Of a DNA stretch of 47,989 bases, positions 10,146 through 14,365 are shown in pieces; position 1 is the first letter of the stretch; each line of letters begins with the position of its first letter. Location of the stretch: positions 1 to 47,989 of the IMG/VR virus record IMGVR_UViG_3300005613_000105; one strand, written 5' to 3'. The notes under the pieces were generated by a model that did no database searches, was not told the origin of the DNA, and saw only the letters and a program-made list of their open reading frames with translations. A program made the translations under genes and the position numbers. Source of the stretch: a virus.

Positions 10146-11096
10146 TTAGCACACTCGGGCATCACCAAACACCCAGGCATCACCAAACACCTTGGCATTA
10201 CCAGACACCTGGGCATTACCAGACACTACGGCATCACCAAACACCTGGGCATTACCAAACACTCGGACATCACCAAACACCTGGGCATCACCAGACACCT
10301 TGGCATTACCAAACACCCAGGCATCACCAAACACCTCGGCATCACCAAACACTCGGACATCATCATACACCTTGGCATTACCAGACACATGGGCATTACG
10401 ATACACATGGGCATTACGATACACCTCGGCACCCTCATACACCTGGGCATTACCAAACACCCAGGCATCACCACGCACCTGGGCATCACCAAACACCTGG
10501 GCATCACCAGACACTACGGCATCACCAAACACCTGGGCATTACCATACACCTGGGCAAAATCACTCACCTTGGCATTACCAAACACCCAGGCATCACCAA
10601 ACACCTGGGCATCACCAAACACCTTGGCATTACTAGACACACGGGCATTACCATACACTAAGGCAAAACCACGCACCTGGGCATTACCAGACACATGGGC
10701 ATTACCATACACCTTGGCATTACCAAACACCTGGGCACCCTCATACACCTGGGCATCACCAAACACCTGGGCACCCTCATACACCTGGGCAAAATCACTC
10801 ACCTTGGCATTACCAAACACCCAGGCATTACCATACACCTGGGCAAAATCACTCACCTTGGCATTACCATACACCTTGGCATTACCAGACACATGGGCAT
10901 TACCAAACACCTGGGCTTTACCAGACACATGGGCATTACCATACACTCGGGCATCTTCACCGATGTAGGCAGTATCAGCAACCGTAGCAGTATCAGCTAC
11001 CCAACCACCGATTGAACCATCAGGGTTCTTGTGTTGGTGAGCAGGAACGGGGCCATCACCGAAATCAAAGGTAGTGAGTTCTTTGTCGTTTTCCAT
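10146..11096 (-). CDS. Hexapeptide-repeat (left-handed beta-helix) protein
   Basis: 316 residues from leaderless ATG 11096. The N-terminal cap (FDFGDGPVPAHQHKNPDGSI, then GGWVADTATVADTAYIGEDA) leads into about 45 near-perfect hexads of the form GNAKVS, GDAQVF, GNAHVY running to the C terminus. V-x-G-(N/D)-A-x periodicity is that of left-handed parallel beta-helices, as in LbH acyltransferases and polymer-like proteins. No acyltransferase catalytic residue or C-terminal domain is seen, so it is probably a structural, polymer-like or decoy protein. The plus-strand frames here are shadows of the repeat. Confidence 0.85.
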   Translation of the reverse strand: MENDKELTTFDFGDGPVPAHQHKNPDGSIGGWVADTATVADTAYIGEDARVYGNAHVSGKAQVFGNAHVSGNAKVYGNAKVSDFAQVYGNAWVFGNAKVSDFAQVYEGAQVFGDAQVYEGAQVFGNAKVYGNAHVSGNAQVRGFALVYGNARVSSNAKVFGDAQVFGDAWVFGNAKVSDFAQVYGNAQVFGDAVVSGDAQVFGDAQVRGDAWVFGNAQVYEGAEVYRNAHVYRNAHVSGNAKVYDDVRVFGDAEVFGDAWVFGNAKVSGDAQVFGDVRVFGNAQVFGDAVVSGNAQVSGNAKVFGDAWVFGDARVC

Positions 11097-11102
11097 GTGT
11101 GT

Positions 11103-11130
11103 ATTATACACCATCAAGGGCAGATTGCAA
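11103..11130 (-). promoter_or_regulatory. Leaderless-type promoter
   Basis: Minus strand: TTGCAA (11130-11125), 16-nt spacer, TATAAT (11108-11103), ACACAC, ATG 11096. Confidence 0.8.
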
Positions 11131-11466: not shown

Positions 11467-12129
11467 TCAGTGAGAAAGGAATCGAACGGTCTTCTTAGCA
11501 GTCCAGCACAGACCACAATCGGCGCAGGACTTTGCTTTACCAGTCTGTTCGGGACAATCGAAAGAAGAACCCTCGAAAGATTCTTCCGCAGCGTATAGCC
11601 AACCCGTAATGGTATCGGCTTCGAAGTTACCAGAATGGCGAATAACACAACGCTCGGAAAAGCGGTTATTCAGGAGCCAAATAGCCCTGCCAATACTGGT
11701 TTGATTTTGGCGAGCAGTATATCCGAAGATCGCAAGTTTAGGATATTCCAGCAACATCTCTTGCCAGAACTCGACATATTCAACAGAGTAGAAGTCTCCA
11801 AGAACGTGCAAGCGAATAAGGATCCCGTCCTTATGTTTCGCCAGTAGCTTAGCGATATCTTCGCGCAGCTTATCCTCCAAACCGTTCACATCGTAACGAT
11901 GCGCGAACGGCATATTATTACCATAGCAGTCTGCCCAATGGTGGCAGCTAGTAGGGCACGTTGCACGCTCAGTAAGCGTAAGCGAAAAAATACGCTTTTC
12001 CTTGTGTCGGCCCTTACTAACTTTCGAGCCAAGTTTTTTGTTGTTCGATCCAGGCTTGAGGACGTGGAGAGTATCCAAAACAGACTTGATCGACTTAGGG
12101 TAGCGCGTGGTCAGCATCGTAGAACTCAT
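11467..12129 (-). CDS. GP88-like phage protein, Cys-rich
   Basis: 220 residues from leaderless ATG 12129 (TATAAT-ATCCGC-ATG). The middle carries TERATCPTSCHHWADCYGNN then LIRLHVLGDFYSVEYVEFWQ and LAIFGYTA, the hallmarks of the phage Gene-Product-88 family; the C terminus has a CPEQTGK(n)CADCGLCW cluster. At least seven cysteines suggest a metal or Fe-S site. Homologues occur in many actinobacterial and aquatic phages without proven function. The extra upstream residues in the long frame translate the promoter and leader. Confidence 0.7.
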   Translation of the reverse strand: MSSTMLTTRYPKSIKSVLDTLHVLKPGSNNKKLGSKVSKGRHKEKRIFSLTLTERATCPTSCHHWADCYGNNMPFAHRYDVNGLEDKLREDIAKLLAKHKDGILIRLHVLGDFYSVEYVEFWQEMLLEYPKLAIFGYTARQNQTSIGRAIWLLNNRFSERCVIRHSGNFEADTITGWLYAAEESFEGSSFDCPEQTGKAKSCADCGLCWTAKKTVRFLSH

Positions 12130-12135
12130 GCGGAT

Positions 12136-12456: not shown

Positions 12457-12526
12457 GTTTTCTGTCACCTGGGCGAGCCGCTTCGGGCCTAACCTCTATT
12501 TATACTCGCCCGAACGAGTTAGCGAT

Positions 12527-13199: not shown

Positions 13200-13228
13200 A
13201 TTATACCTCAGGTTGTGGGGTCAGTCAA
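13200..13228 (-). promoter_or_regulatory. Leaderless-type promoter overlapping upstream stop
   Basis: Minus strand: TTGACT (13228-13223), 17-nt spacer, TATAAT (13205-13200), ACACAC, ATG 13193. The -35 box is built from the last codon and stop (GTTGACTGA) of the preceding gene. Confidence 0.85.
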
Positions 13229-13521: not shown

Positions 13522-13794
13522 TTAGTAGTTTCTTTTTACCAAGAGAAGAGTATTCCCTTTTTCATCTTTCATGTAGGCGTGAGATTTAGGCATCCCTTTT
13601 TTAGCCTTATAGGATACTCTCCAATCTACACCAAACCTAGGACCTACAAGGGAACAAATATTCCAATGCTCTGCTAAGCCTGAAACAGCATCCTTATATG
13701 AGTCTCCAATAGCGGTATACTCACCAGACTCACGACGATGTTTGCCTCGCCCGCTAACAATGAAGACAGAGTATTTATTTCCCTGTACTTTCAT
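13522..13794 (-). CDS. Hypothetical protein downstream of the tmRNA-like element
   Basis: 90 residues, starting MKVQGNKYSVFIVSGRGKHR, with TAIGDSYKDAVSGLAEHWNI and a basic C terminus. It is AT-richer than the surrounding array and more like the phage body. ATG 13794 lies 8 nt after the CCA end of the RNA candidate; no promoter or clear Shine-Dalgarno separates them, so it may be on the same transcript. Not recognised. Confidence 0.6.
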   Translation of the reverse strand: MKVQGNKYSVFIVSGRGKHRRESGEYTAIGDSYKDAVSGLAEHWNICSLVGPRFGVDWRVSYKAKKGMPKSHAYMKDEKGNTLLLVKRNY

Positions 13795-13802
13795 AGGTAT
13801 AA

Positions 13803-13884
13803 TGGTGGAGCCGCAGGGAATCGAACCCTGGTCCTAACTAGTTCCGTGAACGGCCTTAGCTAGTCGAACAACCATTTCGGCCCC
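13803..13884 (-). ncRNA. tmRNA-like RNA lacking a tag-coding region
   Basis: On the minus strand the 82-nt segment begins GGGGCCG and ends CGGCTCC-A-CCA, pairing as a 7-bp acceptor stem with a G3:U wobble, the alanine identity element. The 5' part continues with TGGTTGTTCGAC, close to the universal tmRNA 5' signature (GG-n-TTCGAC). The T-arm is CAGGG-TTCGATT-CCCTG. Between them is only about 31 nt that can fold as CTAGCTA/TAGTTAG plus CCG-TTCA-CGG, where a normal tmRNA holds pseudoknots and the tag frame. A canonical D-arm and 7-nt anticodon loop cannot be drawn well. Alternatives: degenerate tRNA, remnant of ssrA, or attachment-site copy. Confidence 0.55.
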
Positions 13885-13926: not shown

Positions 13927-14142
13927 TCATTGCGTAGTCAGGAAAGCCTCATAGGCTCCGAACCGTTTACCCTCGGAAGGTTTCTCAATCATCCTCCGAG
14001 ATTCAATGTAGTCCTGCAAGGCTTTCTCAATTTCCTGCGAATCGGCTTGCGGATCGGTTTGACGGTAAAGGTTTCGGAAGCGACGACCTTTGACCAAAGA
14101 GACTTCGTGCAAGTACGACTGTTCGTTCATCTTCTGACTCAT
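13927..14142 (-). CDS. Hypothetical 71-residue protein
   Basis: ATG 14142 starts 1 nt after the stop of the acidic gene, with GAGGAA just upstream. Starts MSQKMNEQSYLHEVSLVKGR, followed by RFRNLYRQTDPQADSQEIEK. Mixed charge, helical. The longer frame reaching 14400 runs through the acidic gene in another register and is not real. Not recognised. Confidence 0.65.
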   Translation of the reverse strand: MSQKMNEQSYLHEVSLVKGRRFRNLYRQTDPQADSQEIEKALQDYIESRRMIEKPSEGKRFGAYEAFLTTQ

Positions 14143-14143
14143 A

Positions 14144-14365
14144 TCACCATTCCTCGTTGTAGTTTCCGTAGCTTTCATCCATTCCCCAGCCCATGCTGGT
14201 AAATGCGTCCTCGTCTTCCTCGTAGTACCTTTCCTCGTAGTCTTCCTGTCTCCAATCGGCGTCAGCGTCCGAGATATCATCCCAATCGGTCGAAAGCTCG
14301 GAGAAGTGCGTATCGTCGTAAGCGTAGGCGTCAGCCTCGTCGTAGTTGTCGAACTCGTGTTCCAT
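14144..14365 (-). CDS. Extremely acidic 73-residue protein, leaderless (DNA-mimic candidate)
   Basis: ATG 14365 follows TATAAT-ACGCAC. The product is dominated by Asp, Glu and Tyr (starts MEHEFDNYDEADAYAYDDTH; later EDYEERYYEEDEDAF) with almost no basic residues. Small, highly acidic phage proteins frequently mimic DNA to block host nucleases or regulators; that is a family-level analogy, not a demonstrated similarity. Coupled to the next gene by TGATATG. Confidence 0.7.
   Translation of the reverse strand: MEHEFDNYDEADAYAYDDTHFSELSTDWDDISDADADWRQEDYEERYYEEDEDAFTSMGWGMDESYGNYNEEW

Follow-up and report, generated by a model that had tools for sequence, protein, structure and literature searches.

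A phage-borne tmRNA limited to its tRNA-like domain, and a broad family of mostly unannotated relatives

It was found that an 82-nt element on the minus strand of a viral genome sequence has, as judged from its letters, the whole tRNA-like domain of a tmRNA but no mRNA-like domain. The element lies in the window, which is the whole stretch of DNA analysed here (47,989 nt; IMG/VR virus record IMGVR_UViG_3300005613_000105), and a chance match or debris is ruled out as its origin. Such mini-tmRNAs form a broad phage family, mostly unannotated, in dozens of unrelated phages. The parts of the element and its neighbouring genes are listed in Table 1.

Table 1. Parts of the mini-tmRNA and neighbouring genes in the window
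Feature	Position	Strand	Basis or remark
TLD-only (mini) tmRNA, whole, 82 nt with encoded CCA	13803..13884	-	RF00023 63.8 bits, cut-off 47, model 1-374
Acceptor stem, 5' strand GGGGCCG	13878..13884	-	Sequence; pairs 5:68 and 6:67 co-vary in the family
Stemless D region AAATGGTTGTTCGA, tmRNA 5' signature TGG..TTCGAC	13864..13877	-	Sequence
Helix 2, 5' strand CTAGCTA	13857..13863	-	Fold; strand-swap control
Capping hairpin CCG-TTCA-CGG, where a full tmRNA has the ~300-nt pseudoknot and tag domain	13844..13853	-	RF00023 match, fold
Helix 2, 3' strand TAGTTAG	13834..13840	-	Fold
T arm CAGGG-TTCGATT-CCCTG	13814..13830	-	Sequence, fold; pairs 49-51 co-vary
Acceptor stem, 3' strand CGGCTCC (U70:G3), discriminator A, CCA	13803..13813	-	Sequence
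Upstream same-strand ORF, 71 aa, no Pfam match	13927..14142	-	Element starts 42 nt past its stop codon
Acidic ORF	14144-14365	-	Upstream neighbour of the 71-aa ORF
Downstream same-strand ORF, 90 aa, no Pfam or PHROG match	13522..13794	-	ATG 9 nt after the CCA end
GP88-family gene	11467..12135	-	Element ~1.7 kb upstream, in the same minus-strand gene run

In the minus-strand direction (13884 to 13803), the sequence of the element is GGGGCCG-AAATGGTTGTTCGA-CTAGCTA-AGG-CCG-TTCA-CGG-AAC-TAGTTAG-GAC-CAGGG-TTCGATT-CCCTG-CGGCTCC-A-CCA. Folded to minimum energy, it forms an acceptor stem of 7 bp that includes G3:U70, a D region without a stem, a helix 2 of 7 bp under a small hairpin cap, and a T stem of 5 bp with a loop of 7 nt; it ends in the discriminator A and the encoded CCA. 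The alanine identity (G3:U70 and A73) is present, and the stemless D region and the T loop, which are needed for SmpB (PMC3968760), can be recognised as sequence. The mRNA-like domain with its resume codon, tag frame, and stop is absent, as are the pseudoknots around the tag, of which the capped helix 2 is the sole remainder. Since the folding energy of the element alone is ordinary (z -1.7), the evidence for it consists of homology and covariation. A preliminary description, made from the sequence without database searches, had given this position and strand exactly, and its reading as a tmRNA tRNA-like domain with alanine identity and no tag frame is fully supported by the sequence, the RF00023 match, and the fold.

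In an Infernal search, the tmRNA model RF00023 aligned the element from model position 1 to 374, leaving out ~300 positions in the centre, at 63.8 bits over a cut-off of 47 (E-value 4e-24 in 1.8 kb and 1.1e-22 in the whole window). RF00023 is the top scorer of its clan at the element. Thus, the comparison of tmRNA and tRNA models proposed in the preliminary description came out for tmRNA, and not for the higher-scoring tRNA that had been named there as the contrary outcome.

Is this element common in other viruses? IMG/VR was searched with a strict pattern (both tmRNA ends, with 25-50 nt between CGAC and the T arm), which matched 46 contigs, and with a looser pattern, which matched at least 120. 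The two patterns combined gave at least 134 viral contigs, counting the window's own locus. Among the 134 matches listed, the acceptor stem is paired 7/7 and the T stem in at least four positions in 116 (87 unique sequences); the remaining 18 pair if the stem begins one base earlier, as judged by eye. Grouping the matches listed at 0.85 similarity left 57 representatives. GG stands upstream of CGAC in 82 of the 87 unique members listed and TCGAC occurs in 79 of them, CGAC itself being fixed by the search pattern. A GCN-to-stop stretch in the loop region was seen in only 23 of the same 87, counted with no shared frame looked for. A covariance model, R1, built from 50 representatives recovers these members at 32-86 bits and scores the window element, which is within its training set, at 74.8 bits. 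The RF00023 cut-off was exceeded in 42 of 49 larger contigs. There is also a shorter subfamily of 64-68 nt (L059:3694-3758, L095:5836-5899, and L062:234-297), in which helix 2 is closed directly by a short loop and which is still nearer to engineered TLD constructs.

The family-model search of 396 + 284 bacterial genomes gave no match, which says little, as only 12-16 candidates were scored per genome in the results shown. When genome contigs were scanned with the pattern, the matches examined were mostly 3' ends of full-length actinobacterial tmRNAs, with a coincidental GGGG..GA start. The seven matches with a fully paired acceptor stem all lie inside ARAGORN tmRNAs, and no bacterial example is claimed. 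ARAGORN tmRNA calls overlapping the viral loci L050, L052, L063, and L072 were treated as spurious, their tags being unlikely.

Might the element be an ordinary tRNA, or one half of a split or permuted tmRNA? ARAGORN proposed a permuted tmRNA around one related contig, L038. However, the permuted-tmRNA model reaches only 19.1 bits at the window element, against a cut-off of 47, and the ends are in the standard order. As for a split form, a second tmRNA over the RF00023 cut-off was found in none of the 49 larger contigs (the window and the Stenotrophomonas phage Jojan60 included; contigs may be incomplete). With R1, the full-length tmRNA known from phage Mx1 (L254) reaches only 24 bits. An ordinary tRNA was rejected because ARAGORN reported neither a tRNA nor a tmRNA in the window, the tmRNA model is the best of its clan, and the fold lacks a D stem. 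Altogether, this alternative is extremely improbable.

Covariation was assessed in 97 aligned members, in an alignment that was fitted to the model and leans towards structure: 99.2% of the cells are paired, both-side changes occur in 9 of 15 pairs, and the covariation score is 0.586, as compared with 0.112 for shuffled and at most 0.079 for slid controls. Compensatory changes were found in the acceptor stem, the T stem, and the capped H2 helix, and the acceptor pairs 5:68 and 6:67 vary freely with pairing kept. Helix 2 has at least five contiguous pairs in 61 of the 87 members listed, against a strand-swapped mean of 4 (max 10). Identity variants were looked for in IMG/VR: G3:C70, A3:U70, and non-A73 forms were each found in 0 contigs, as compared with at least 120 for the wild form, although such scans may miss variants that also differ elsewhere. 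Because GGGG and CTCC were fixed by the patterns, their invariance in the alignment exists by construction, and the three negative scans alone are informative. The alanine identity thus appears to be kept in natural members. The window element is probably functional and a real member of a rarely recorded kind.

These results bear on another alternative, that the element is a non-functional remnant of a host ssrA gene, left by an attachment site or by a chance internal deletion. Integration at ssrA is frequent (PMC11915505), and some phages do carry pieces resembling the 3' part of ssrA next to an integrase. However, both ends of the element are kept and co-vary in many phages, the three scans of IMG/VR found no identity-breaking variants, and the same gene, a GP88 homologue, adjoins the element in related phages. 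A mere remnant is therefore highly improbable. Its attachment-site version, suggested in the preliminary description, is contradicted by the retention and covariation of both ends, since the integrase-side fragments keep only the 3' part. Such fragments in the mycobacteriophages Shandong1, Niklas, and Milly lack the 5' half and score at most 22 bits with the family model.

The window carries tailed-phage genes (terminase, portal, and baseplate-wedge), and no near relative of its 8-20 kb stretch was found in INPHARED. The element had been placed between an acidic-protein operon and a small gene. This is roughly right: the 90-aa ORF does adjoin it, but the 71-aa ORF separates it from the acidic ORF. 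The neighbourhood is common to four IMG/VR contigs (L002, L016, L038, and L046), where the homologue of the GP88-family gene of the window comes immediately after a mini-tmRNA. The elements are 84-90% identical to that of the window in L002, L038, and L046 and 68% identical in L016. The neighbouring small proteins are mostly 37-63% identical, so that the element has been kept while its surroundings diverged, and the GP88 protein of L046 is 92% identical. Thus, the lack of conservation in relatives that would have spoken against the element did not occur. The sequence immediately upstream showed no promoter for the element, which may therefore be processed from a longer transcript.

Several other features of these contigs were observed. 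Near-perfect TTGACA-N16/17-TATAAT promoters with the -10 box 6 nt before an ATG (TATAATACRCACATG) occur in the window at 1514, 5553, and 6103 on the plus strand, at 13228, 13407, 14400, 14656, 15503, and 16151 on the minus strand, and elsewhere. This spacing suggests many leaderless mRNAs in the window phage. A Pistol ribozyme (RF02679, 39.1 bits, cut-off 34.5) lies at 12469-12519 on the strand of the mini-tmRNA; L046 has another next to the homologous gene (10954-11006), and Gordonia phage GMA2 has one in its tRNA array (L270:1842-1898). A long repeat protein encoded at 10146-11117 on the minus strand of the window matches YdcK beta-solenoid and bactofilin models. In the related contigs L021, L032, and L035, ARAGORN called a tRNA-Pyl (CUA) about 3.2 kb from the mini-tmRNA.

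At least six cultured phages have a mini-tmRNA: the Streptomyces phages LuckySocke, GiJojo, BRock, pSt2308, and Shaeky, and the Stenotrophomonas phage Jojan60. These score 57-64 bits with RF00023 and lie in or beside tRNA arrays. At none of these sites is a tRNA or tmRNA gene annotated; GiJojo and Jojan60 have an overlapping hypothetical protein there. A weak copy in Alone3 (36.8 bits) was left out of the six. A BLAST search of phages with the window element gave mostly 3'-half matches, many of them in tRNA-Arg genes, and led to Jojan60 and to Mx1, the latter being full length. Five candidates, SM1, CcrBL9, RpAliso, S-CAM1, and S-SSM7, all proved to be permuted tmRNAs. As an observation in its own right, these permuted tmRNAs of Caulobacter phage CcrBL9, Pseudomonas phage SM1, Ruegeria phage RpAliso, and the cyanophages S-CAM1 and S-SSM7 have no tmRNA annotation (L262:1976-2281, L261:1972-2271, L265:1470-1691, L266:1455-1723, and L271:957-1259). 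In the Tunturiibacter phage Tunturi_4, an RF-1 domain protein directly precedes an unannotated permuted tmRNA (L267:1123-1470, 1475-1884), so that two ribosome-rescue-like genes stand side by side. GMA2 has an unannotated full-length tmRNA (L270:1121-1532, 94.6 bits) and a Y RNA-like sequence (YrlA) below the cut-off at L270:1557-1666.

In IMG/VR, 19 of 133 loci lie within 300 nt of a tRNA, as compared with 5 for random positions, and 19 of the 22 loci within 1 kb of a tRNA are on its strand. Phage tRNA genes are commonly thought to counter tRNA cleavage. The frequent position among phage tRNA genes would suit a decoy for tRNA-attacking host defences, and the kept charging identity would suit either such a decoy or an alanyl donor for a non-ribosomal reaction. 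However, the element lacks an anticodon loop, where such nucleases usually cut. A tRNA-Ala would also suffice for either role, yet the element retains the D region and helix 2 that are specific to tmRNA. I regard this pair of roles as very unlikely. No SmpB gene was found in the 49 larger contigs (the window and Jojan60 included; contigs may be incomplete), so the host SmpB is presumably used. The simplest reading is that the element relies on the SmpB, AlaRS, and EF-Tu of the host.

From the anatomy, homology, covariation, and spread seen in these sequences, which leave no room for a tag domain, I infer that the element may be expressed, processed, charged, bound by SmpB, and inhibitory. It is rather likely to act as a host-SmpB-binding, alanine-charged competitor of trans-translation. 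A polycistronic transcript would be trimmed by RNase P and 3' processing to the mini-tmRNA, which would be charged by the host AlaRS and bind the host SmpB and EF-Tu. It would then compete with the host tmRNA by tying up SmpB. The charged form might also enter the empty A site of a stalled ribosome and accept the nascent chain but supply no resume codon. The net result would be an inhibition of host trans-translation, both tagging and proteolysis, during infection. Published work on similar molecules is consistent with this. A molecule like the TLD-only tmRNA of mycobacteriophage DS6A is reported to inhibit tmRNA strongly in E. coli, perhaps via SmpB titration (PMC4131195 and PMC11915505, citing Mao 2009), and alanyl-TLD-SmpB-EF-Tu is described as binding or entering the stalled ribosome (Neubauer 2012, via PMC3968760). 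Among the three functions offered in the preliminary description, the alanine-accepting decoy is thus the most likely on published support for a similar molecule.

Pure SmpB titration leaves part of the constraint unexplained, since the inhibition by the similar molecule is reported not to need chargeability (PMC4131195), yet the alanine identity is apparently kept. This suggests that the charged form matters, either for EF-Tu delivery and nascent-chain capture or for an untemplated addition of alanine. In the latter case, the mini-tmRNA would be a working alternative to tmRNA and not an inhibitor. Charged and bound to the host SmpB, it would enter a stalled ribosome, accept the chain, and translocate, leaving the A site empty; further copies would add untemplated alanines, and the chain would finally be freed by release factors, ArfA/ArfB, or Pth. 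The kept alanine identity, unneeded for simple SmpB titration, fits such tailing. Polyalanine was reportedly made in vitro without mRNA from a TLD fragment and SmpB (Shimizu and Ueda 2006, via PMC3929946), and mitochondrial tmRNAs without a tag frame are thought still to help with incomplete mRNAs (PMC11915505). However, the similar molecule inhibited tmRNA in E. coli according to the papers cited above, and no phage partner gene was seen. A tagless rescue of this kind is unlikely, and it is a little less probable still that a widespread phage RNA carries out untemplated alanine addition with the host SmpB on stalled ribosomes instead of ssrA tagging, as a natural counterpart of the TLD-SmpB polyalanine reaction under phage control. 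RqcH performs alanine tailing. If true, the phage RNA would be a new RNA-based counterpart of it.

The case for phage control over host ribosome rescue through a small RNA had rested on one phage, DS6A. It now appears to be the work of a common, conserved, and mostly unannotated gene, which was missed probably because ARAGORN finds nothing at such sites. The Streptomyces phages on S. lividans are testable systems: is trans-translation turned off or re-routed, and is alanine charging needed?

The element had been presented as possibly new, but a TLD-only phage tmRNA has been described once, as the tmRNA of DS6A is listed as 'TLD only' (PMC4131195 and PMC11915505, citing Mao 2009). The window element falls under the definition of that kind, a phage gene limited to the tRNA-like domain in standard order (PMC4131195). 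As compared by its published description, DS6A shares with the window element a phage-encoded gene with barely more than the tRNA-like domain and no tag frame. In contrast, DS6A is a single phage, and the present family is large and covarying, occurs in many unrelated phages, and usually has a closed helix-2 hairpin. The kind is thus already known from isolated cases only; the 2025 tmRNA database of 97,179 sequences has only 9 'standard, no CDS' forms (PMC11915505). What is new here is the breadth, the covariation, the apparent retention of alanine identity, and the newly recognised cultured examples, and not the category itself.

The standard bacterial tmRNA (ssrA, RF00023) has the same G3:U70 acceptor, A73, CCA, stemless D region TGG..TTCGAC, T arm, and base of helix 2, whereas the phage element lacks PK1-PK4, the resume codon, and the tag frame and is 82 nt instead of ~350. 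Jakobid and oomycete mitochondrial tmRNAs (RF02544; Jacob 2004) have also lost the mRNA-like region. However, they are organellar and mostly permuted in two pieces, whereas the phage form is one piece with SmpB presumably supplied by the host. The CDS-less plastid tmRNAs of Mallomonadaceae (PMC11915505) are likewise short and without a tag frame; they are known from two sequences and are shorter, at ~65 nt. The engineered TLD constructs (PDB 2CZJ; Shimizu and Ueda 2006; Neubauer 2012) have the same architecture; in the 2CZJ entry, the 5' 25 nt and the 3' 34 nt are described as joined by a UUCG loop. Such fragments reportedly bind SmpB and enter stalled ribosomes, and polyalanine can be made with them in vitro. 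They are man-made, whereas the phage forms are natural.
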